Origin: a virus
Virus record (IMG/VR): IMGVR_UViG_3300027754_000358
Coordinates: 1 to 27,171 of that record
DNA: 27,171 bases
Reading direction: 5' to 3' (one strand)
Made by a program: the position numbers and the translations under genes
In this document: positions 197 to 12,441 of the stretch, one piece after another
Numbering within the stretch: the stretch's first letter is position 1
Layout of the letters: every line of letters starts with the position of its first letter
Notes under the pieces: model-generated
Database searches by the model: none
Told to the model about the DNA's origin: nothing
What the model saw: only the letters and a program-made list of their open reading frames with translations

Positions 197-1834
197 TTGA
201 AAACGCCAATCCTCGGCGGCTCTTACGTCGCTCGGTCAATCAATGCGGCAGACAACCGCATGGTCAACCTTTTTGCCGAAGCTGTGCCAGAAGGCAGCGG
301 CGGGAAGGAGGCTGGGTTCTTGCTGCGTTGCCCCGGCCTGCGGTTGCTTGCAACTGTTGGCGACGGCCCAATCCGTGGGTTGTGGGTCACTAATGGCGTA
401 GCCTATGTGGTGTCCGGTAATGAGTTCTACAGCCTGAATACCAGTTGGGTTGCAACCTTGATCGGTTCCGTGTCAGGTACTGGGCCTGTTAGTATGGCTG
501 ACAACGGAACCCAGCTATTCATCGCCTGCAATCCGTTGAGTTACATCTATAACACCTCCACGGCGGTGTTTGCCCAGATTACGGATGTGGACTTCCCCGG
601 CGCGGGATCGGTTGGCTACCTCGACGGGTACTTTGTATTCAACGAGCCAAACAGCCAAAAGTTTTGGGTTACCAGCTTGCTGGATGGGACTGCCGTAGAT
701 CCATTGGACTTTGCAAGCGCTGAAGGCTACCCCGACGATGTAATTGCGCTGATCGTAGATCACCGCGAGATATTTCTATTTGGCACCACCAGCGTTGAGG
801 TTTGGTACAACGCAGGAACGCCAGACTTTCCCCTAGCGCGGATTCAAGGCGCGTTTCTGGAAGTGGGCTGCGAGGCCGCGTACTCTGTGGCGAAACTCGA
901 CAACAGCGTGTTCTGGCTAGGCTCGGACGCTCGGGGCCGGGGGATTGTCTACCGAGCCAACGGCTACACGCCTGCGCGGATTTCTACCAATGCAGTGGAA
1001 TACGCCATACAGAGTTACGGCAACATCTCTGATGCCATTGGCTACACCTACCAGCAGGACGGTCACCCATTCTATGTGCTGGTCTTCCCGTCAGCCCAAG
1101 CGACATGGGTTTATGACGTATCCACCCAGTTGTGGCACGAACGCGCTGGGTTTGAAAACGGGCAGTTCACCAGGCACCGCAGCAACTGCCAAACGTCATT
1201 CAACGACGAAATTGTGGTTGGGGACTATGAAGACGGGCGGGTGTACGCCTTTGATCTTGATATCTACGCCGATGATGACCAGATCCAGAAGTGGCTGCGG
1301 TCTTGGAGGGCGTTGGCTACGGGCCAAAACAACCTCAAGCGCACCGCGCACCACAGCCTGCAACTTGACGCCGAAACGGGTATTGGTCTAAACGCCTATC
1401 CCGCTTACAGCGCCGAAGATCTGGCTACTGAATCCGGCAACATTATTGTGGCTGAATTTGTGCAAGGGTATTTGACCACGCAAGCCGGTGACCAGTTAGT
1501 GACAGAAGCAAACGATGCGAATAACCCGTTGGTTACTCAAGTGCAACCCGCAGCAGATTACAACGGATACGCGCTGGATACTGAATCCTACTCTGCTGCG
1601 CCGGGGTACGACCCGCAAGTCATGCTGCGCTGGTCGGACGATGCGGGGCACACTTGGTCGAACGAGCATTGGCGGTCAATGGGCAAGCTCGGGGCGTATG
1701 GCACCCGCACTATTTGGCGGCGGCTCGGCATGACCGAGAAAATCCGCGACCGGGTGTATGAGGTGTCCGGCACCGATCCGGTGAAGATCGCCATCATGGG
1801 CGCTGAACTGTTTGTCACGCCAACGAGTAGCTAG
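197..1834 (+). CDS. P22 gp10-like tail hub / packaged-DNA stabilisation protein
   Basis: A 545-residue protein. Its order of motifs resembles P22 gp10 (phage stabilisation protein family): an N-terminal segment with VNLFAEAVPE, then PGLRLLATVGDGPIRGLWV, then VSMADNG, a central DHREIFLFGTTSVEVW strand, and a C-terminal IWRRLGMTEKIRDRVYEV segment. In P22 the protein closes the portal after packaging and forms part of the tail hub. Length is somewhat above P22 gp10 (about 470 aa). The TTG start directly after the previous TAA is chosen because the first residues (GGSYVARSINAADNR) look like the conserved N-terminus. The next in-frame ATG at 260 would remove them. No good Shine-Dalgarno precedes the TTG, so reinitiation after the upstream stop is likely. 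Its TAG stop overlaps the next GTG by one base. Confidence 0.72.
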   Translation: MKTPILGGSYVARSINAADNRMVNLFAEAVPEGSGGKEAGFLLRCPGLRLLATVGDGPIRGLWVTNGVAYVVSGNEFYSLNTSWVATLIGSVSGTGPVSMADNGTQLFIACNPLSYIYNTSTAVFAQITDVDFPGAGSVGYLDGYFVFNEPNSQKFWVTSLLDGTAVDPLDFASAEGYPDDVIALIVDHREIFLFGTTSVEVWYNAGTPDFPLARIQGAFLEVGCEAAYSVAKLDNSVFWLGSDARGRGIVYRANGYTPARISTNAVEYAIQSYGNISDAIGYTYQQDGHPFYVLVFPSAQATWVYDVSTQLWHERAGFENGQFTRHRSNCQTSFNDEIVVGDYEDGRVYAFDLDIYADDDQIQKWLRSWRALATGQNNLKRTAHHSLQLDAETGIGLNAYPAYSAEDLATESGNIIVAEFVQGYLTTQAGDQLVTEANDANNPLVTQVQPAADYNGYALDTESYSAAPGYDPQVMLRWSDDAGHTWSNEHWRSMGKLGAYGTRTIWRRLGMTEKIRDRVYEVSGTDPVKIAIMGAELFVTPTSS

Positions 1835-3651
1835 TGGCAAACCTCAACATCACCAACATCCCCGCGCCGAGGGTGCCGTTCATTGACGAACGCACCGGCC
1901 TGATGGCGCGGGAATGGTATCGGTTCTTTCTTAACCTGTTTGTCCTGACCGGCAGCGGCAACAACCCCATCACGCTTGAAGAATTGCAACTTGGGCCACC
2001 CAACCAGCCCGATCTGACCGAGTTGCTGATCCAGATCAACCAGAACATTGCCCCGCAGTACGAGGATCAATCGGGCGACTTTTTGGCTACTCTTGACACC
2101 GCGCAACTGATGTCCATGATGTCGCGGTTTGAAAACGCTGAAGCCGCCATCCAAGGGGCTTACCTCCAGCCGGTCGTGCAGACCGGCACCATTGCCAACT
2201 ACAACCTTGACGGTAGCCCGACAGCGGGTGGCATAGCCTACGGCACCGGCCCCGCGCTGGCGGTGAGCGCCGCAGGCACATCGGGCCAGGTACTGACCAG
2301 CGCCGCCGCAGGCACGCCCACCTGGACAACGCCGACCACCGGCACCGTGACCGCTGTTTCTGTGGTGTCAGCCAACGGGCTGGCAGGTACCAGCTCAGGT
2401 GGGGCAACGCCTGCGCTGACACTTTCCACGACCGTGACCGGCGTGGTGAAGGGTAACGGCACCGCGCTATCGGCAGCCGTAGCCGCAACGGACTATGTGG
2501 CCCCTAGCGCCTACGCCAGCGTCAACGGCCTCACGATGGCGACAGCAAGGCTTCTGGGCAGAACCACGGCAGCTACCGGCGCGGCTGAAGAGATCAGCGT
2601 GGCGGGTGGGTTGACGCTTTCTGGAGGCACTTTGACCGGAACCTCGGGGACGGTTACCAGTGTGACAGGCACTGCGCCTGTGGTCAGCTCGGGCGGCGCT
2701 ACGCCTGCAATCTCGATGCCTGCCGCAACGACGAGCGTAAACGGTTATTTGACCAGCACCGATTGGAATACGTTTAACAGCAAGGGCAGCGGCACCGTTA
2801 CCAGCGTCAGCTTTACTGGCGGGATCATCACCGTTGCAACCGCTACCACAACCCCCGCGCTGACGGTTGCTGGCACCTCGGGCGGCATCCCGTACTTCTC
2901 CAGCGCGTCTACCTGGGCATCCTCGGCGGCTCTTGCGGCGGGGGCGATAGTTCTTGGTGGTGGGGCTGGCGTAACTCCGGCTACGACCACAACCGGAACA
3001 GGCGTCGTCACTGCGCTCGGGGTCAATACCGGCACCGCTGGTGCGTTCGTGGTGAACGGCGGGGCGCTTGGTACACCGTCCAGCGGCACCGTCACCAACC
3101 TGACCGGCACTGCCAGCATCAACATCAACGGGACAGTTGGCGCAACAACTGCCAACACGGGTGCGTTCACTACGATCACCGCCAGCAGCACTATCACGCC
3201 ATCGCAAACGGCGGGGATTGTAGGCACTACGACAAATAATGCTGCAAACGCTGGGAGTGTTGGCGAGGTAATTACATCGTCGGTTGCCATAGGCGCGGCG
3301 GTTTCTTTAGTTAATAACGCCCCCAAAACAATAACCAGCATTTCGCTAACCGCTGGTGATTGGGATGTTTTTGGAACACTTGGTTTTAACGGAGGCGGCA
3401 CAACGAACACTACGTTACTTCTTGGCGGGATGAACACAACCAACAACACCTTGCCATCATTGTACGAAGAACGAGTAACCCAAAACGCAGCGTTAGCTGC
3501 ACCGTTTGGAACCAGTCCGGTAAGTTTTACAATTCCCACTACGCGGGTTTCTTTGAGCGGCACAACGACATACTATTTAGTGGCGTATGCGTTATTCTCG
3601 GTATCAACCTGCGATGGTTTTGGTCGCATAACGGCTCGCCGCAGTAGGTAA
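1834..3651 (+). CDS. Tail fibre protein with low-complexity shaft
   Basis: A 605-residue protein starting at GTG, which overlaps the preceding TAG by one base (TAGTG). Residues 1-50 (ERTGLMAREWYRFFLNLF) are typical of the virion-anchoring N-terminus of phage fibre proteins. A helical stretch follows to about residue 110. Then comes a long shaft rich in Gly, Thr, Ser, Ala and Val, with repeated GTVTSV and GGATPA motifs, to about residue 480. Residues 485-605 form a separate C-terminal module that recurs at the end of the next protein. Base composition drops visibly at about 3200, where that module begins. Inferred role: host-surface binding. The receptor cannot be predicted. Confidence 0.78.
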   Translation: MANLNITNIPAPRVPFIDERTGLMAREWYRFFLNLFVLTGSGNNPITLEELQLGPPNQPDLTELLIQINQNIAPQYEDQSGDFLATLDTAQLMSMMSRFENAEAAIQGAYLQPVVQTGTIANYNLDGSPTAGGIAYGTGPALAVSAAGTSGQVLTSAAAGTPTWTTPTTGTVTAVSVVSANGLAGTSSGGATPALTLSTTVTGVVKGNGTALSAAVAATDYVAPSAYASVNGLTMATARLLGRTTAATGAAEEISVAGGLTLSGGTLTGTSGTVTSVTGTAPVVSSGGATPAISMPAATTSVNGYLTSTDWNTFNSKGSGTVTSVSFTGGIITVATATTTPALTVAGTSGGIPYFSSASTWASSAALAAGAIVLGGGAGVTPATTTTGTGVVTALGVNTGTAGAFVVNGGALGTPSSGTVTNLTGTASININGTVGATTANTGAFTTITASSTITPSQTAGIVGTTTNNAANAGSVGEVITSSVAIGAAVSLVNNAPKTITSISLTAGDWDVFGTLGFNGGGTTNTTLLLGGMNTTNNTLPSLYEERVTQNAALAAPFGTSPVSFTIPTTRVSLSGTTTYYLVAYALFSVSTCDGFGRITARRSR

Positions 3652-3669
3652 CATTTAACAAGGAACACA

Positions 3670-5580
3670 ATGGCTACTCTGACCCCCGCGCCAAAACTAC
3701 AGTTTTTTGACTCCAATGGCGTCCCCCTATCTGGCGGGAAAGTTTATACCTACGCCGCAGGAACGACGACTCCGCTCACCACATACACCAGCTCGGCGGG
3801 AACCATAGCCAACACCAACCCCATCATTCTGGATAGTCGGGGCGAGGCAAATGTTTGGCTGGACAACTCGTTCTATAAAATTGCTCTGTATTCAGCAACC
3901 GACGTTTTGATATGGACTGTTGATAACGTAAGCACACCATTCGTAACCCTATCCCAATCGGATGGATCGTCTTACATAGGTTTCATGCCTTCCGGCGCTG
4001 GGGCAGTGGCAACCACTGTGCAGGCCAAGTTGCGTCAGACTGCCAGCGTGTTTGATTTTATGACCGCAGCACAGCAAGCAGACGTTATTGCCTACGGGTA
4101 CACGCTAGATGTAACCGATGCAATAAACGCGGCTTTAGCGGCTTGTGTGACACTACATTTCCCGCCTGGCGGCTACAAGATAACAAAGTCCGTTCGTTTT
4201 GTTCTGGGAAATACTTTATCGCAGCGCGTTGTATTTGACTCGGCAATAATCAAAGCTACGGGTGCGGTTACCAATTACGATCAGATTGTAAGTTCTTCCG
4301 GTAATACGGGTTTATACGCCATGCTCAATGGGTACTTTGGGCATGGGTTGACTGTAGATGGCGTCTTGAGATTGCAGGGCGAAGGAATAGCAAACATTGT
4401 CGGCATCGGTTCGTCCGTAGCAAACGTGTCACAAGGGCGTGGATTTGGAGATTGCTTTTTTAACGCATGGATGTTTTTTGACGGTTGCACTTGGGCAATC
4501 TATGCCCAGACAACCGTAGACGGCGGGTCGCTTTCAGGCATCAAGTTTAGCTTCCTAGAAGGAAACGGATCCGCCGGATTCATGTTCTTGGGTACGGGCA
4601 ACGACGATATTGAAATTGATACCGCACGAGTCCAAGGGCAAATACTGTGCTTGAATACTGGCCTGAGCATTATAAACTTTTACACTTATGGCCCTGATCC
4701 ATCAGCGGGGCCATTAGTTTCCACGGGTCTTAGTGTTGGCTCAAGTTGCAGCGTGACGATTACCCACGCATTCCCCGAGGGTAATTTTGATAATCCGTTT
4801 GTTGTGTCTGCAAATGCGTCATTAAAAATTGACCAGTTGCTGCCCGGTGGCGGAGCAATTGTTACAACAAACAACGCGTATATCTTTTGCAATGGCAACA
4901 ACCCTGTCATTGATGTCAGGGTTAGCCGCACTGAAGGAACGACAGGTTTTGTTGTTGCCAGACTTACCCAGACCACATGGGAAAGCAACATCAATGTCAC
5001 TTGCCCCTATATCTTAGACACAACCAATACGGTCAAACCGCAGCCATTCAAGTTGAATGTCGGCGGCGGGTCTGCGTCGGCAGCGGGGGTTATGTACGCC
5101 AACATGACAGACGGCACATGGCGCGGCGATTGGGGCGGCAGCACGTTGGTGTATCGTCGAGTGGAAAGTTTGGGCGCGTTGCAATCCGCGTCGGTAGAAC
5201 TTGGCTCTCCTGTCTCGCTTGTTACAGCTACAGCAAAAACAGTCACCAGCATTTCATTGACCCCCGGTGATTGGGATGTAGCTGCGTCAGTTGGCTTTAC
5301 CGGCGGGGCAACATCCGTGTTGAGCTTTATTGTTGGCGCGATAAGCACAACCACAAACACGCTCCCCAGTTCCTACACTGACCGAGTTCAAGAAGTGTAC
5401 CCCGCCGCATTTACGCCTTTTGCCACTAGCTCGATAGGGTTTGCGGTTCCCAGTGTGCGGATAAGTGTTTCGGTAACGACCACAGTGTACTTGGTTGCTT
5501 ACGCCAGTTTTACAACATCTACATGCTCCGCGTTTGGACGACTGAACGCCACTGCGGTCAATGTTGCTACGGCCCTATAA
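3670..5580 (+). CDS. Tailspike protein, beta-helix (pectate-lyase-like) type
   Basis: A 636-residue protein with an ATG start 8 bases after AAGGAA. Residues 1-90 (PAPKLQFFDSNGVPLSGGKVYTY followed by SRGEANVWLD) match the head-binding domain common to phage tailspikes. A linker (VQAKLRQTASVFDFM, about residues 117-132) leads into AINAALAACVTLHFPPGGYKI, the usual opening of a right-handed beta-helix. The central part is rich in short beta strands, as expected for a trimeric spike that may degrade or bind surface polysaccharide. No catalytic residues can be assigned. Residues 515-636 repeat the C-terminal module of the preceding fibre. The gene is more AT-rich than its neighbours, which suggests module exchange. 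Confidence 0.78.
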   Translation: MATLTPAPKLQFFDSNGVPLSGGKVYTYAAGTTTPLTTYTSSAGTIANTNPIILDSRGEANVWLDNSFYKIALYSATDVLIWTVDNVSTPFVTLSQSDGSSYIGFMPSGAGAVATTVQAKLRQTASVFDFMTAAQQADVIAYGYTLDVTDAINAALAACVTLHFPPGGYKITKSVRFVLGNTLSQRVVFDSAIIKATGAVTNYDQIVSSSGNTGLYAMLNGYFGHGLTVDGVLRLQGEGIANIVGIGSSVANVSQGRGFGDCFFNAWMFFDGCTWAIYAQTTVDGGSLSGIKFSFLEGNGSAGFMFLGTGNDDIEIDTARVQGQILCLNTGLSIINFYTYGPDPSAGPLVSTGLSVGSSCSVTITHAFPEGNFDNPFVVSANASLKIDQLLPGGGAIVTTNNAYIFCNGNNPVIDVRVSRTEGTTGFVVARLTQTTWESNINVTCPYILDTTNTVKPQPFKLNVGGGSASAAGVMYANMTDGTWRGDWGGSTLVYRRVESLGALQSASVELGSPVSLVTATAKTVTSISLTPGDWDVAASVGFTGGATSVLSFIVGAISTTTNTLPSSYTDRVQEVYPAAFTPFATSSIGFAVPSVRISVSVTTTVYLVAYASFTTSTCSAFGRLNATAVNVATAL

Positions 5581-5595
5581 ATCTAAGGAACTCAC

Positions 5596-5931
5596 ATGAC
5601 CGTCACCGTAAAAGTCCTCATTCCCGCCAAGATTGCGGAAGCCACCCAAGTCACGCAGTACACCGCAACGAACGTCACCACAATCATTGACAAGTTCACG
5701 GCGACCAACTACAGCGCAACAGCGGCGACGCTTAGTGTGAATCTGGTCACGGCGGCTGACACGGCTGGCAATCAGAACTTGATTACCAAAACCAAGACAC
5801 TTGCCGCCAGCGAGGTGTACACTTTTCCCGAGATTGTGGGCCAGGTGCTAATGGCGAGCGGGTTCATCTCGACCATCGCGGGGACGGCAACCGCTATCAA
5901 CATTCGGGCCAGTGGGCGGGAGGTTAGCTAG
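5596..5931 (+). CDS. Small structural-type protein, unknown function
   Basis: A 111-residue protein, ATG start, with a clear AAGGAA ribosome site 5 bases upstream. It is Thr/Ala-rich, has no cysteines, and alternates short polar and hydrophobic segments as in small beta-sandwich virion proteins. It lies between the tailspike and the cupin gene in the same operon, and its TAG stop overlaps the next GTG by one base, so the two are probably translationally coupled. A virion accessory or tail-tip role is inferred from position only. I do not recognise a named family. Confidence 0.65.
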   Translation: MTVTVKVLIPAKIAEATQVTQYTATNVTTIIDKFTATNYSATAATLSVNLVTAADTAGNQNLITKTKTLAASEVYTFPEIVGQVLMASGFISTIAGTATAINIRASGREVS

Positions 5932-6239
5932 TGGATATTCAGTTCCATGATGGGGGCGACGAAGGCGTTTTCATAGTGGAAACTACCGCGCCTGCGGGTA
6001 AGGTGCTGGTGTCCCACCGGCATGACCACGCGCACATGTCAGTGCTGGTGTCGGGAACTGCCGATGTGACCATTGACGGGCGCACGGAGCGCATGACAGG
6101 CTATCGTATGGTATCCATCCCCGCTAACACGCAACATAAGGTGGTTGCGGTGACCAATGTGATCTGGCTATGCCTATGGGCTGACCATCTGGCGCCAAAA
6201 GAAAAAACCGTTGCTTCGCTCAAGTTGGTGGCTGCGTGA
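5931..6239 (+). CDS. Cupin-domain protein
   Basis: A 102-residue single-domain cupin, GTG start overlapping the previous TAG by one base. Cupin motif 1 is seen as H29-x-H31-x3-H35 followed by G42 (HRHDHAHMSVLVSG). The usual Glu of HxHx3-4E is a His here. Motif 2 is seen as G57...P64-A-N-T-Q-H69. H29, H31 and H69, with H35 or H33, could bind one metal ion. Cupins of this size include dioxygenases, isomerases and sugar- or small-molecule-binding proteins, so the substrate cannot be read from sequence. It overlaps the following oxygenase gene by four bases (GTGA), which suggests the two proteins work together or are made in equal amounts. Confidence 0.75.
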   Translation: MDIQFHDGGDEGVFIVETTAPAGKVLVSHRHDHAHMSVLVSGTADVTIDGRTERMTGYRMVSIPANTQHKVVAVTNVIWLCLWADHLAPKEKTVASLKLVAA

Positions 6240-6769
6240 AGATAGAACGTCTGGCTCGCGGGTTGCCCGTTGCGGAGATCTACTGGAAGCTCCAGCAGAA
6301 CCCGCAGCTATGGAACGAACACGCCACCCGCACCGCAGACGAGGCCAGCCCGCATAACCAGTTAAGCGACATCTGGGCGCGTTACGGTGATCCCGAACGC
6401 GCTGTAGACGGCAAGCCACATGACGCGCATTGGTATCCCGCCGCAGATGTATTAGGCGTTAAGTCCTTGTGTTATGACACGATGCGGTTTGTGCAAGGCG
6501 TAGAGTTGGGTGGGGTGTTGATCACCCGCATCCCGCCGGGGGCTACTTGCAAGCCGCACATTGACAAGGGTTGGCACGCTTTGCGGTACGGTAAGTTTGC
6601 AATTCAGATCACCAGCGCGCCGGGGCAGTTGTTTCAGTTTGAAGGCGAAAGTCTGGAAACAATGCCGGGGGACGTTTTTACGTTTAACAACCAGTATTTA
6701 CATTGGGTCACGAACGACACACAATACGAGCGTGTCACCATGATCGTCTGTATTCGGAAGGAGCTTTGA
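6236..6769 (+). CDS. 2-oxoglutarate/Fe(II)-dependent oxygenase (aspartyl/asparaginyl hydroxylase-like)
   Basis: A 177-residue protein, GTG start within the overlapping GTGA of the cupin stop. The iron triad is visible as H108-x-D110 (CKPHIDKGW) and H156 (YLHWVTND). R166, ten residues after the distal His, fits the 2-oxoglutarate carboxylate ligand. The PGDVFTFNN strand before the distal His is typical of the double-stranded beta-helix fold. The spacing resembles the aspartyl/asparaginyl beta-hydroxylase group more than the PhyH or AlkB groups. Likely reaction: hydroxylation of a protein side chain or small molecule with 2-oxoglutarate and oxygen. Position among virion genes suggests a tail or fibre protein, or a host-surface molecule, as substrate, but this is inference. 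Confidence 0.75.
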   Translation: MKIERLARGLPVAEIYWKLQQNPQLWNEHATRTADEASPHNQLSDIWARYGDPERAVDGKPHDAHWYPAADVLGVKSLCYDTMRFVQGVELGGVLITRIPPGATCKPHIDKGWHALRYGKFAIQITSAPGQLFQFEGESLETMPGDVFTFNNQYLHWVTNDTQYERVTMIVCIRKEL

Positions 6770-6770
6770 T

Positions 6771-7718
6771 ATGCCTTGGCTTGAAGTAGCAGGAACTGTA
6801 GCGGGCGATGCTCTGTTGGGCGAAGTGGGTGTGTCTGCGTTGGCTGGCGGTGGTATGGACGCCTTCCTCTCCGGTACAGGTTCAGAACTTATGGGACTGT
6901 CGGGTGCCGGGTACACGTATGCTGGAGCTAATGCCGGCAGTGCTTCGCTTATATCGCAACTTGCCAATCTTACTGGTCTGTCAACGTCTGCCATTGAGCG
7001 TCTGGGCGGCGCGGGTATTAGCAGTTTGGCGAGCATGTACGGTGCGGGCAAGATAGGTCAAGCCGGGATGGACGCGGCAAATAAGCTGGCGGGAGCTAAC
7101 CAGACTGCAACGCAACTGCAATCGCAAATGTATCAAGACCAGATGGCGCGGTCGCAGCCGTACTATGACGTTGGCGTAAATGCGTTAAAGCCGTATACCA
7201 CGGGGATTATGGGCACACAGGAACAACAAGCCGCAGGGCAACCAGGCAAGTTGGTGCGCCCGTTTGATGTTACCCGCGATTACACGCAATCGCCTTGGTA
7301 TCAATACAGTTTAGATAAAACGCTAAAAGACTACACTAACAAATTAGCGTCGATGGGGCGTGTTGATTCTGGGCCAATGCGGCGTGGCGTGGTAGACATA
7401 GCAAAAGCAGCGGGGCAAGAAGATATTACGGGCGCTTACAATCGGTACAACGCGGATTTGAATACGCAACGCAGCGCGTTGGGGAATGTGGCTGGTTTTG
7501 GGCCGCCTGCAAATGCAGCGATGACCACAGCCGGCGCCAACTACGGGACTAACGTAAATAATCTTGGCATCAGCACGGCAACCAATTATGCCAACGCGGG
7601 GATGAATGCAGCGCAGGCAAACCAATCGGCCTATTTGGGCGCGGGCAATGCGTTTGCTAACGCCGCGTCACCAAACCCAATAAACGCTTACCTCAACAAG
7701 CTGATGGGGGTTGCATAA
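6771..7718 (+). CDS. Ejection / internal virion protein, small subunit
   Basis: A 315-residue protein, ATG with a strong AAGGAG seven bases upstream. The N-terminal about 90 residues are Gly/Ala-rich and mildly hydrophobic (AGTVAGDALLGEVGVSALAGG), as in phage proteins that enter or cross membranes. The middle has a Gln-rich helix (QTATQLQSQMYQDQMARSQPYYDVG). A YTQSPWYQYSLDKTLKDY segment and an Asn/Ala-rich C-terminus follow. This layout, and the two large helical proteins directly downstream, match the ejection-protein sets of P22-like podoviruses. The TAA stop overlaps the next ATG by one base. No enzymatic motif is seen. Confidence 0.6.
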   Translation: MPWLEVAGTVAGDALLGEVGVSALAGGGMDAFLSGTGSELMGLSGAGYTYAGANAGSASLISQLANLTGLSTSAIERLGGAGISSLASMYGAGKIGQAGMDAANKLAGANQTATQLQSQMYQDQMARSQPYYDVGVNALKPYTTGIMGTQEQQAAGQPGKLVRPFDVTRDYTQSPWYQYSLDKTLKDYTNKLASMGRVDSGPMRRGVVDIAKAAGQEDITGAYNRYNADLNTQRSALGNVAGFGPPANAAMTTAGANYGTNVNNLGISTATNYANAGMNAAQANQSAYLGAGNAFANAASPNPINAYLNKLMGVA

Positions 7719-9499
7719 TGGCTGACCTTAATTTTGGCCTTCTCGACACGCAAATGCCGGGCCGTTTTGCTGCCATTCCACAACAGCAGGAGGCGCAGCA
7801 GGCGCAGAACGCGTTGCAGTTGATGCAGCTCCAGCATTCGGTGGGGCAGAACGAACTGGCTAAGTACCAGTTGTCCTCGGCTAAACGTGCCGACACTGAG
7901 GCTGAACAACTGCGCGCCTTGTATGGCGGGGCATCAGCAGCAGGCATGACCGACCCAGAGTTTATCCGCAGGGTGTACGCGGTCAATCCAACGCAAGGCA
8001 TGGCATTGGAGAAAGCGCTTGCTGAACGCGCTACAGCGGGTCTGACTCAAAAGAACTTGACGAGCCAAATGAATGCGCGCGATCTGGAGTCGCAATACAA
8101 GGCCGCCGAACACGCCAAAGAGAACTTTAGTTTTTTGCGGGCTATCCCCGGCGGCGCAACAGATGCGGATATTGACGCCGTGGTCAAAGACGCTGCCAAA
8201 TCGTTAGGTATGCAAAGCGCGTTTAAGCTGGGGGAAGAGTTAAAAAAACTTTCGCCCGCCGACCGAAACTTAGCGTTTGACTCTTTGGGGTTGAAAGCTG
8301 ATAAAAGGCTTGAACTTCTTTCGCCAAAATTAACGGTTATAGGCGGCCAGGCATACCAAAGCAATTTTAATGCGCCAGGCTTTATGACGCCATTTACTAA
8401 CGTACCTACAATACCGCAAAGCGCGGTGGGTAGGGCGGGAGCAGATCTTGCCGCCGCGACAGCAAGAGGCGCGCCTCCTGAGGAAATTGCGGCGTTAACT
8501 GCTGCTGTTAACGCGCCGCGACTTGGGCAAGAAACAGCGCAAGGACAACTTACCGTAGCACGACGCAACGCGGCTACTAGCGAAGCGCGCCTTAAACTGG
8601 CGCAAGAAGCACCTAAACTTGGCTTGACTGACCCAGAGGACATTGACCGTGTTGCTGTAGCGGTTGCAAATAATCGGTTGCCGGTAGATAAGTTAAACAG
8701 CACCACCGCGCCAATGTTTGCTAAATTACTCAAAGCCAATCCAGACCTTGATTTTACCAAAACAAGTATTGATCAGGCGGTGGCTAGAACGGGTGCTGTA
8801 ACTACCGCACGAATTGGAGCCGAGCAAACACGCACTACAAGTCTTACCCCCGAAATGATACAGCAACACGGCGACGCGTATAACACCAACGGTAAATTGC
8901 CGTCGTTAGGCAGCGGGCCACAAGCAGCGGTAGATCGCGTAGCTATTTTGCGTTATGCCTCCGAAAACAACCCGACTGACGCCACAACAAAAGCGTTAAA
9001 TAAAGCGCAATTGGACGCCCTGGTTCCGTTGGCAAAACGAGAAACGGATGTAACAAGCTATGTTAAGACGTTTGACAAAAACATAGAGCTTGCGCGGGCG
9101 GCATTAACCAAAGTATCTAACACCAATATCCCCGCGCTTAATGCTTGGTTACTTAACCCCGCGCAACGTCAACTTACCGGCGATCCCGATCTAAAGGCGT
9201 TGGGCGTTTACGTCAGTAGCTTGCAAGCAGAATTTGCAAAAATTCAATCGGGAGCAATGGGTAACTCAGTAATCGCCGATGCCGCGATTAAACGCGCACA
9301 AGACACTATTAACACCGCCGACAGCCCACGAGCGTTTAGGGCTGCGTTGGATGCAATGGTAAAAGAAAGTCGTAACCGGATAGACAGTTTTGAAGATACG
9401 AGAAAAGAAATGGCGGCAAAAGTACGAGGGCAACCCGCGCCAACTACGCCCGCCGCAGCAACACCTGCGCCCGGTTGGGGCAAGGCGGAGGCCAAATGA
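7718..9499 (+). CDS. Ejection / internal virion protein, helical
   Basis: A 593-residue protein, ATG overlapping the previous TAA by one base. Residues 15-60 are Gln-rich and form a predicted coiled coil (QQQEAQQAQNALQLMQL). A segment with MTDPEFIRRVYAVNPTQGM follows, of a kind frequent in phage proteins at this operon position. The rest is mostly Ala/Lys/Glu-rich helix, with a Pro/Ala-rich tail near residue 575. There are no cysteines and no membrane segment. It probably forms part of the DNA-ejection conduit with its neighbours. Its TGA stop overlaps the next ATG by four bases (ATGA). Confidence 0.6.
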   Translation: MADLNFGLLDTQMPGRFAAIPQQQEAQQAQNALQLMQLQHSVGQNELAKYQLSSAKRADTEAEQLRALYGGASAAGMTDPEFIRRVYAVNPTQGMALEKALAERATAGLTQKNLTSQMNARDLESQYKAAEHAKENFSFLRAIPGGATDADIDAVVKDAAKSLGMQSAFKLGEELKKLSPADRNLAFDSLGLKADKRLELLSPKLTVIGGQAYQSNFNAPGFMTPFTNVPTIPQSAVGRAGADLAAATARGAPPEEIAALTAAVNAPRLGQETAQGQLTVARRNAATSEARLKLAQEAPKLGLTDPEDIDRVAVAVANNRLPVDKLNSTTAPMFAKLLKANPDLDFTKTSIDQAVARTGAVTTARIGAEQTRTTSLTPEMIQQHGDAYNTNGKLPSLGSGPQAAVDRVAILRYASENNPTDATTKALNKAQLDALVPLAKRETDVTSYVKTFDKNIELARAALTKVSNTNIPALNAWLLNPAQRQLTGDPDLKALGVYVSSLQAEFAKIQSGAMGNSVIADAAIKRAQDTINTADSPRAFRAALDAMVKESRNRIDSFEDTRKEMAAKVRGQPAPTTPAAATPAPGWGKAEAK

Positions 9500-12441
9500 C
9501 TACCTACAGCATTTCAGCACCCGACGGAAAAACTTATACCATAGACGGCCCCGCAGGAGCGTCGCAAGAACAAGTGCAAAATGAAGTTATACGGCAAAAC
9601 CCGCATTTGGCTGCGCCGCCGCCCGAAGTATCTGCCAAACGCAGTGTTGGCGGTTTTGTATCGAACATACTTCCCTCTGCGGGTCGTTTGGTTAGCGGTA
9701 TAGCCGACATGGTTATGCACCCAATCAACACCGTTAGCGGTGTTTTGGATATTGGCGCTGGCGCGCTACAAAACGCGCTACCAAAAACTTTTGTTGACTT
9801 TGTTAATTCAGGCGACAGTCCTGAAAAAGCAGCGTCTGTTAAGCGCGCTGTTGATGCCGCTAATGCAATGGGTGGTTTTCTTAAGGAACGATACGGTTCG
9901 CTAGACAAAATAAAAACCACGCTTTACAACGACCCCGTAGGCGCGGCAGCGGATCTCTCGATCCTATTCACCGGCGGCGGTGCGGCTGCAACGCGTGTGG
10001 CTGTTGCCTCGCGCGCGCCTATTGTGGCCGGCGCTATGGCCGGCCTTCCGGGCATGGAAGCTGCTGCCAGCACCTCCGGTGCGTTGCTCTCAACAGGTAA
10101 AGCGTTAAGCACCGCAGGGCAATACACAAACCCGTTAGCTGCAATTGGCCCGATAGCGGGTGTGGCGGGGAATATGGCTTTAGCGGTGCCGGGCGTTCAA
10201 CGGGGGGTAGACGTAAGTAAAGCCGTAGCAAAAAAAGCAGTTAGCACAGGATACAACCTTATTGAACCCGCGCTTCCAGGTGGCGCAGAAGCAATAAAAA
10301 ACCGCGCTATTATGTCGGCGTTTTCATCCGACCCAGTTAAAGGCGCGCCCGATATTGCCAAAATGAACCAGGCAATAGCCATGCTAGAAGGCGGCGCAAC
10401 TATTGAACAAGTAGCGGTTGCGCTAAACAGCCCGGGGCTGGCCGCAATGGCTAAAACATCCCAGAACGCTAACACGGCCTTGGCAGGTATTTATGCGGAA
10501 AGAGCGAAAGCGGTAAGAGAAAGTCGAGCCAATCAATTGGAAGGGGCAAGCGCGAATCTTAACGCACTGAGTCAGGCCAATTTGCCGCCTAGCGCGGGGT
10601 CACCTAACCTACCCCGCCAGGCAGTCAATACCGCACTAGCACAAGAACAAGCCGCGCTGGCGGCGCAACAGGCCGCTAGAACGGGTGCGCTGACAGCGGA
10701 GCAACAAGCCGCTGAAGCGGCGCTGGCGCAACAGCAAGGTCAACTAACAGCAAGCGTAGCCAACACTAGGCAAATGGAAGTTGGCGACACACTTACCAAA
10801 ACGCGCGCAGAGCTAGAAAAAGCGGTGCGCGAAAAAGTGGTTACGCCCGCGTATACCGCAGCGTTCAACGCGTCGGCCGAACCGTTCAGTTTTGCGCCGG
10901 TAGAAGCGGCGGCCAAAAAATTAGCCGCAGATCCATCTACGCAACTTAACCCGCAGATTGCCCCCTACACTACCGAAGCCTTGCGGATGTATGGGTCTAA
11001 GGTGCCAGAACCTGTGCCTGGCGCGCCACCTAGCGCGGTGCCTCCGGCACCTGTGCCGGCAATGGTGACGCTAGAAAGCGCAGATAAGCTGATAAAAGCG
11101 TTGAACACCGATCTAGCGGCTATTCGGGGGGCTAGGGATTCGGCGTCCAATATGACGCGCAAAAATTTAATGGAGCTTAAATCAGCGGCTGAACAAGCTA
11201 TTGCAAGCGGCGTGTCTAAAGAGGCCAACCAGCTATACAAGGAAGCGCGCACGTTGCACCGGACAAAGGTAGTCGAGCCATTCCTTAAAGGTTGGGTTGC
11301 TAACTTGGAACGCGAAGGCGCAACAGGTACACAAATACTGGCGCCCAGTAAGGTAACGCAGAAGATACTGAGTAGCGAAGAAGATGCCATTCGTGCGGTT
11401 GCGGCGTTTGGCGAATCGCCGGTAGCGTTGCAGGCCATCAAAGCGGGCGTAGAAGGTGAATACCGCGCTGCGGTTGTAGCGGGGAAAACACCACATAAAG
11501 ACTGGATGGACGCGCATCAGTTTCAGCTAGAAGCGCTTGATAAGGCCGGTCTGGGCCTGACCCAACGTCTGGAAAGTCTTGGCGGCAGCGCGCAAAAGTT
11601 AGAGCAAACTGCTGCTGAATTAAAAGCAACTCGTGCGGCCATACCCGGCAAAGTAAGCGCCGAATTTGAAGCGCAAAACAAAGCGTTAGCCGCAGTGTCC
11701 GCAGACTTGGAATTTAAGAACGTAGGCGAGCTACGCAAGTCTGTAGTCAAAGACGAAGCCACGATGAACCAAGCGTTGCGGCGCATGGACGAACCGGCGA
11801 AAGCCGCGCTAGCCCGAGGCGTCATGCAAGACGTAAAGACGTTGGCAGAATTAACCGCTAATGAACGGCCTATCATGGCTGCGCTGCGCGCTGCCGATCC
11901 TGCTACTGCTGCGCGTATCATGGCTAACGCCAAAGAAGCCTTTAACATACGTTCGTTGATAGAAGAGGCGCAAAAGGCGCGGCCCGCAAATGCTTTAGGC
12001 ACGACGCAGCGTGTCGCGGATTTAACCCAGGGGTTACCTGAAGTGCGGGCGGCGGTGCAAAAAATACAAGCCGAAATAAACCAAAGCACTAGCTTTGATA
12101 AACTGGCGGCGAAAGGTGTAGCCGCAGGCGGTGGTGTTGGAACCCTAGCTACTGAAGCTGCTGGCCCTGCGGTAGCAAGTTTAAACCACTACATGAGCAT
12201 GATAAATTTTGTGATGCGTAGGCTTAAAGGATTGACGGACGATAAGTTGGCCGCGCAGATTGGCGTTGAGCTTGCTAACTCACCTTCAGCAGCAGCGTTG
12301 ATATCTAAGGCGCAAGCCAAAGTCACCGCGCCAGCAGTTGCAAAACCACCTCGCTCTTGGTCTGGATCAATAGCACCCGGGGCAATAATGCTCAACCAAC
12401 TAGCACCGCAAGAATCGCAAAACAGACTGGCGGCACCTTAA
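9496..12441 (+). CDS. Large ejection / internal virion protein
   Basis: A 981-residue protein. ATG at 9496 is preferred over an in-frame TTG at 9475, because it sits in an ATGA overlap with the upstream stop and has GGCGGAGG just before it. The N-terminus (YSISAPDGKTYTIDGPAGAS) is a short beta module common at the start of phage ejection proteins. Residues 50-240 contain several amphipathic or hydrophobic stretches (VSGIADMVMHPINTVSGVLD, AIGPIAGVAGNMALAVPG). The remainder is long Ala/Glu/Lys helix with coiled coils (AEQQAAEAALAQQQ, about residues 400-420). A Pro-rich linker, PVPGAPPSAVPPAPVPA, breaks the helix near residue 510. No lysozyme or peptidase motif was found. Role in genome delivery is inferred from position and composition. 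Confidence 0.6.
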   Translation: MTTYSISAPDGKTYTIDGPAGASQEQVQNEVIRQNPHLAAPPPEVSAKRSVGGFVSNILPSAGRLVSGIADMVMHPINTVSGVLDIGAGALQNALPKTFVDFVNSGDSPEKAASVKRAVDAANAMGGFLKERYGSLDKIKTTLYNDPVGAAADLSILFTGGGAAATRVAVASRAPIVAGAMAGLPGMEAAASTSGALLSTGKALSTAGQYTNPLAAIGPIAGVAGNMALAVPGVQRGVDVSKAVAKKAVSTGYNLIEPALPGGAEAIKNRAIMSAFSSDPVKGAPDIAKMNQAIAMLEGGATIEQVAVALNSPGLAAMAKTSQNANTALAGIYAERAKAVRESRANQLEGASANLNALSQANLPPSAGSPNLPRQAVNTALAQEQAALAAQQAARTGALTAEQQAAEAALAQQQGQLTASVANTRQMEVGDTLTKTRAELEKAVREKVVTPAYTAAFNASAEPFSFAPVEAAAKKLAADPSTQLNPQIAPYTTEALRMYGSKVPEPVPGAPPSAVPPAPVPAMVTLESADKLIKALNTDLAAIRGARDSASNMTRKNLMELKSAAEQAIASGVSKEANQLYKEARTLHRTKVVEPFLKGWVANLEREGATGTQILAPSKVTQKILSSEEDAIRAVAAFGESPVALQAIKAGVEGEYRAAVVAGKTPHKDWMDAHQFQLEALDKAGLGLTQRLESLGGSAQKLEQTAAELKATRAAIPGKVSAEFEAQNKALAAVSADLEFKNVGELRKSVVKDEATMNQALRRMDEPAKAALARGVMQDVKTLAELTANERPIMAALRAADPATAARIMANAKEAFNIRSLIEEAQKARPANALGTTQRVADLTQGLPEVRAAVQKIQAEINQSTSFDKLAAKGVAAGGGVGTLATEAAGPAVASLNHYMSMINFVMRRLKGLTDDKLAAQIGVELANSPSAAALISKAQAKVTAPAVAKPPRSWSGSIAPGAIMLNQLAPQESQNRLAAP

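Follow-up and report, generated by a model that had tools for sequence, protein, structure and literature searches.

The recurring element at the locus studied here is a slot directly 5′ of a phage ejection gene, which holds modification-type enzymes of several kinds, and not the particular gene pair that occupies it in the virus we began with. Which type of enzyme the slot holds covaries with the opening residues of the ejection protein; this covariation indirectly supports the ejection protein as the target, and suggests that the enzymes may modify or handle it. The window we analyzed is a linear IMG/VR record of 27,171 bases from a podovirus-like phage, probably a fragment, in which the slot contains a cupin and an AspH-type Fe(II)/2-oxoglutarate (2OG) oxygenase, called AspH below.

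An overlapping cupin/AspH pair in the late operon

The genes for the cupin (102 residues, positions 5931–6239) and AspH (177 residues, 6236–6769) are on the plus strand, as are all the neighbors for which we give protein lengths, and both have GTG start codons. The start of AspH (6236–6238) overlaps the TGA stop of the cupin (6237–6239) in a GTGA at 6236–6239. The GTG of the cupin at 5931 in turn overlaps the stop of a preceding ORF for a small protein of 111 amino acids (5596–5931), which often precedes the cupin but whose family is not AspH-specific. Downstream, an ORF at 6771–7718 on the same strand begins 1 nt past the AspH stop, with AAGGAG upstream. It encodes an ejection protein similar to P22 gp7 and T7 gp14 (phrog_598 'DNA ejection', P22 gp7 type, E = 1e-13), with the N-terminus MPWLEVAG, and is the candidate substrate. 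Two long presumed ejection proteins follow, one of 593 amino acids (7718–9499), recognized by its position and by partial similarity in relatives, and one of 988 amino acids (9475–12441), recognized by position; Pfam and PHROG searches gave no hit for either. On the upstream side are a gp10-like stabilisation/head closure protein (Hc3, phrog_578) and two tail-fibre-like proteins.

These Pfam and PHROG matches in the flanks place the pair between tail genes and ejection genes in a late virion operon, as the preliminary description had proposed, and the ORFs and sequence also bear out its lists of metal ligands and the GTGA join. The overlapping arrangement of the cupin and AspH is not due to chance. 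The two tail-fibre-like proteins (1834–3651 and 3670–5580) have a C-terminal stretch in common (51% identity over 128 amino acids), as if duplicated.

Folds and metal sites

AspH matches the aspartyl/asparaginyl beta-hydroxylases of Pfam family PF05118 with an E-value of 3e-8 (34.2 bits, gathering cut-off 22.6). Its AlphaFold2 model (mean pLDDT 95.5) has the double-stranded beta-helix hydroxylase fold, and every Foldseek match of this model is a 2OG hydroxylase or an AlkB-type protein. The top match is L-proline cis-4-hydroxylase (4p7w; 5e-8, TM 0.68/0.46, 15% identity), and further matches include other non-heme hydroxylases, proline 3-hydroxylase and human AspH. Free-amino-acid hydroxylases are among the nearest. 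A sequence profile of the phage protein gave weak matches to proline 3-hydroxylase (1e5r, E = 0.006) and to AspH. The cupin matches Cupin_2 (E = 6e-9, 35.8 bits, cut-off 27.2), and its model (mean pLDDT 90.6) has an RmlC-type cupin fold with generic RmlC-type matches.

Variable active-site residues in relatives would have counted against the preliminary description, but they did not vary: H108, D110, H156 and R166 of AspH are the same in all 29 relatives compared, which extend to 30% identity, and H29, H31, H35 and H69 of the cupin are invariant in an alignment of 14 diverse cupins. Estimates of dN/dS are 0.05–0.12 where computable, several of the cupin comparisons being saturated at synonymous sites. 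AspH retains every residue of an Fe(II)/2OG site and the cupin every ligand of a four-histidine metal site; both are under strong purifying selection and look competent.

The cupin also matches the profiles PHROG_12032 and PHROG_24280, annotated as 'short tail fiber protein / tail fiber adhesin' (PHA00672), with E-values of 1e-9 and 4e-6. The adhesin name is a transferred label without support for the window's cupin. Cupins with all four histidines (HHHH) are distinct from PHA00672-type cupins, in which metal ligands are lost, and the HHHH site is present in 63 of 65 cupins that adjoin AspH. Cupins 54–67% identical to the window's were found in Xanthomonas phages Elanor and Mallos and in Variovorax phages V45iii and VBv52. 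In Elanor and Mallos the gene is in the replication region, with a pyrophosphohydrolase gene as its neighbor; the two Variovorax records have no annotation. At the sensitivity used, AspH was detected in none of these four complete siphophage-type records. The near relatives of the window's cupin in Xanthomonas siphophages (54–62%; L004:6976–7341 and L005:7164–7529) have a nucleotide pyrophosphohydrolase gene next to them in the replication region.

AspH exchanges its partners

We searched IMG/VR with protein-seeded and profile scans; the profile scan yielded 299 relatives of AspH, and we kept 80 of them. Clustering all fetched loci at 95% left 90 non-redundant AspH genes. The cupin–AspH arrangement occurs in many contigs, from L010–L013 (AspH 78–82% and cupin 64–69% identical) to relatives of about 66% identity. 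A cupin adjoins AspH in 52 of the 90 clusters (48 upstream, 4 downstream), so the two genes are conserved neighbors in many independent phages, although this 58% share is not a population frequency because most of the sample was retrieved via AspH itself. The other partners are a protein of about 60 amino acids that we call HPG (15 clusters), a P-loop protein labeled sulfotransferase-like from its GLPRSGTAW motif and from weak hits in Pfam (10), and a GNAT (9). Four clusters have no partner within 600 nt; for at least two of these the distance limit is the cause, as a cupin (L123) or a GNAT (L131) lies slightly further off. No AspH locus has two kinds of partner together, and the partner has changed at least 16 times on the AspH tree.

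The HPG protein (WDxYFASVxSMSLHPGTTRD...ECAxIADEML) is conserved, belongs to no Pfam family, and stands in for the cupin next to AspH, before or after it. It is beside AspH in L038, L039, L041, L053, L067, L073, L079, L090, L096, L105 and L110, and in the ejection-gene sample described below it occurs only with AspH. At approximately L105:3080–3580 an HNH-like ORF (EGEIDHINGNKRDNRPDNLR), perhaps a homing-endonuclease insertion, lies between AspH and the HPG gene. Limnohabitans phage DC33 (L002, PQ492659.1) has an AspH+GNAT pair adjoining long genes as in tailed phages; its taxonomy line, Inoviridae, is probably wrong because its genome is 39 kb and the pair lies beside these tailed-phage-like genes. 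Pseudomonas fluorescens phage PfAn1 likewise has AspH+GNAT; both are cultured phages, and we found no cultured phage with AspH and a cupin.

Looked at from the cupin, the association is looser. In a sample of 81 cupins collected blind to AspH, AspH adjoins 21 and is absent beside 60, and the common default is a cupin directly before the ejection gene. We therefore rejected an obligate pair: 38 of the 90 AspH clusters have no cupin, and the 60 blind-sample cupins and the four complete phage records have no AspH. The preliminary description had called the pair an undescribed two-protein system, and in the strict sense this does not hold, since those 38 AspH genes have another partner or none and about three quarters of the blind-sample cupins lack AspH. 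In open-licence papers we found no description of the AspH/cupin pair or of the slot besides a remark on GNATs and T7 gp13, cited below.

The ejection-gene sample consists of 80 loci gathered with a single ejection protein as bait, and is biased toward the bait's relatives. In it, raw co-occurrence of cupin and AspH shows no excess (3 seen, 3.4 expected under independence). An association appears only when the cupins are split by metal site: HHHH cupins occur twice with AspH and once without, and incomplete ones once with and 15 times without. Divergence of AspH is correlated with that of the cupin (Mantel r = 0.39, p = 0.0005). The correlation is 0.18 with the ejection protein, although the bootstrap interval of the difference between these two values touches zero (−0.06 to 0.42), and lowest, at 0.13, with gp10.

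The slot upstream of the ejection gene

An ejection gene lies within 1.2 kb downstream of AspH in 78 of the 90 clusters. In the ejection-gene sample the preceding gene often encodes a modification-type enzyme: a cupin, AspH, a GNAT or a sulfotransferase-like protein. Further genes found in the slot encode a DUF6445 protein with an HSDD motif, a cupin–SET fusion and a sulfotransferase–GNAT fusion. In the closest relatives of the window the cassette remains about 80% identical, but a different ejection block (28% identity) has taken the place of the window's.

Single-ORF fusions of a sulfotransferase-like and a GNAT domain are in the slot at L126:2876–3934 and L142:2968–4005. At L136:439–1299 a PHA00672-type cupin is joined to a SET domain (PF00856, E = 3e-11; protein-methyltransferase-type) directly before the ejection gene. 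The DUF6445 proteins with HSDD (PF20043; L137:3303–3902 and L143:2727–3356, of which only L137 was scanned) are also directly before the ejection gene, and are perhaps 2OG-type oxygenases.

T7 gene 13 has the same position, directly before gp14. P22 gp7 and T7 gp14 are regarded as equivalents, and gp14 as an outer-membrane pore (PMC8954989). A GNAT encoded next to internal virion proteins has been likened to T7 gp13, as its possible counterpart, and to virion morphogenesis (PMC6775973). We rejected homology between T7 gp13 and the slot GNATs, for which the hhalign profile match was not significant.

The N-terminus of the ejection protein covaries with the slot

When motifs were compared between ejection proteins from loci with and without AspH, PWG, MPW and related N-terminal strings came top of 961 tests. 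Start codons of ejection genes were picked by Shine-Dalgarno sequence and spacing, without regard to motifs. Residue 2 is proline (Pro2) at 87 of 97 loci with AspH or a metal cupin, but at only 3 of 35 loci with a GNAT or a (non-metal) PHA00672-type cupin. By class, the counts are 64 of 68 for AspH (with AspH+GNAT set apart) and 23 of 29 for a metal cupin only, against 3 of 21 for a GNAT only and none of 14 for a PHA00672-type cupin. The AspH+GNAT loci do not follow the rule. No such difference is seen in the next gene downstream, where residue 2 is proline in 18 of 88 and 4 of 34 cases (background 18%). N-acetylation usually takes place on small second residues (Ser, Gly, Ala, Thr, Cys) and not on proline, so the pattern fits a division between GNAT and non-GNAT slots.

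The N-terminal clue is post hoc, having been found and tested on one dataset. On a tree of ejection proteins built without their first 30 residues, 12 phylogenetically independent pairs gave 9.7 concordant, 0 discordant and 2.3 unchanged contrasts between Pro2 and slot (p ~ 0.002). Residue 4, which is Gly or Ala with AspH, was rejected as an AspH-specific mark because it has only two independent contrasts.

A different cause of the covariation might be genetic hitch-hiking, if recombination moved a slot gene together with the adjoining 5′ end of the ejection gene. Mutual information between slot class and residue peaks at ejection residues 2–6 and drops with distance, as is also expected from linkage, and control positions in the contrasts lean in the direction of Pro2, more weakly. 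However, the MPW start is retained in 8 of 8 loci where one of three kinds of gene (cupin, HPG or sulfotransferase-like) separates AspH from the ejection gene, with gaps of 220–1065 nt, and Pro2 is common to metal-cupin-only and AspH loci despite the difference at residue 4. Where the separating gene is a GNAT or a PHA00672-type cupin, MPW is found in none of 10. We regard hitch-hiking as unlikely.

Possible roles of the slot enzymes

The explanation that we tentatively prefer, with somewhat less than even confidence, is that the pair represents one version of a modular cassette of late genes which would be made late and would prepare the ejection protein for the virion via its N-terminal region. 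Synthesis of AspH and the cupin would be coupled to that of the ejection protein, and they would act on, or hold, its N-terminal region, which after removal of Met would begin Pro-Trp/Phe-Gly/Ala in most AspH loci and Pro-Trp-Leu in the window. In this maturation model AspH would hydroxylate the N-terminal region and the metal cupin would supply a second oxidation or binding step; its explicit form, with modification of the N-terminus itself, we think unlikely as it stands.

In favor of a maturation cassette we count the invariant active sites with their low dN/dS, the ejection gene close 3′ of AspH, the AspH–cupin divergence correlation, the covariation of Pro2 with the slot in the counts and in the independent contrasts, the persistence of MPW across intervening genes, the proline hydroxylases among the oxygenase's nearest folds, and the position of T7 gene 13 together with the likening of GNATs to gp13. 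Other points are against maturation: the ejection block is replaced while the cassette stays, and the AspH–ejection protein correlation is weak; the AspH+GNAT loci fall outside the Pro2 rule; the cupin occurs outside the virion operon in Elanor and Mallos; and an alignment of 12 ejection proteins has no invariant Asp or Asn that could be the target. Our reserve about the model and its N-terminal form reflects these points, the post hoc nature of the clue and the chance that the 5′ end of the ejection gene hitch-hikes.

More generally, and doubtfully, podovirus-type phages may have an interchangeable N-terminus tailoring cassette for the ejection protein that forms the outer-membrane pore, the substrate N-terminus and the enzyme set being exchanged together. 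Pro-Trp/Phe N-termini would be processed by an enzyme resembling AspH and proline hydroxylases, together with a metal cupin, an HPG protein or a sulfotransferase-like protein, and those with small residues by GNATs.

The enzymes might instead modify some other virion protein–a tail fibre, the tail or the 111-amino-acid protein–with the slot merely a convenient late position. It is to this reading that the closest relatives lend support, because the 111-amino-acid and gp10-like proteins stay with the cassette (69–90% identity) when the ejection block is replaced. But the tail genes adjoining the slot vary widely, gp10 has the lowest divergence correlation with AspH, and the 111-amino-acid family is found at 31 of 87 AspH, 21 of 80 ejection-sample and 40 of 80 cupin-sample loci. 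Without enrichment of its family alongside AspH, the 111-amino-acid protein was rejected as an AspH-specific substrate, and we consider another virion target quite unlikely.

We think it improbable that the pair acts on a host molecule late in infection, such as an envelope component or a metabolite, perhaps altering the surface or preventing superinfection. PF05118 includes enzymes with non-protein substrates, which agrees with such a role, as do the free-amino-acid hydroxylases among the nearest folds and the related cupin in the siphophage replication region. A host target would nevertheless leave unexplained both the proximity of the ejection gene and the covariation of its N-terminus, and in the sequence we noted neither a transmembrane nor an export feature. 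It is just as improbable that the slot encodes morphogenesis factors, or chaperones of the ejection protein, that do no catalysis and have enzyme folds only as scaffolds, much as has been suggested for the role of T7 gp13. T7 gp13 in the slot (a 'probable scaffold protein' in Pfam), PHA00672-type cupins without metal ligands and the exchange of very different folds would fit, but AspH and the metal cupins retain full catalytic sites across long divergence, for which a scaffold would have no need.

Returning to the maturation cassette, membrane-active ejection proteins of podoviruses must be kept inactive in the virion until they insert during ejection, and their preparation is poorly understood. 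If slot enzymes and substrate N-termini are indeed matched, post-translational control of ejection proteins would become testable, and hundreds of phage cupins, oxygenases and GNATs labeled hypothetical, accessory or tail fibre would have a function.

Comparison with known systems

Phage AspH has the fold, the HxD...H metal site and the 2OG-type arginine of human AspH (5apa/6yyu) and of the bacterial proline hydroxylases (4p7w, 1e5r). It differs from them in being a short, single-domain protein encoded in a late operon and in having a conserved N-terminal motif of its own, RT...SPH...DIWxR...WYP, and its structural identity to them is 10–18%. The cupin likewise has the fold and the metal-site position of Cupin_2/RmlC-type cupins (plu4264, KdgF and quercetinase domains), but its fourth ligand position is histidine (H35), where glutamate is usual, and it belongs to a phage-specific family. 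The PHA00672-type cupins of phages VPMS1, VvAW1 and DSL-LC05 occupy the same slot as the window's cupin; unlike it, cupins of this type lack a complete histidine site and are mostly without AspH. The Elanor, Mallos, V45iii and VBv52 cupins have the same histidine cluster, in the three that were aligned. Finally, T7 gene 13, like the GNATs likened to gp13 (PMC6775973), resembles the window's pair in its late-operon position before a gp14-like ejection gene, but T7 gp13 belongs to PF11090, for which neither the cupin nor AspH has a Pfam hit, and the pair's folds and families are different.
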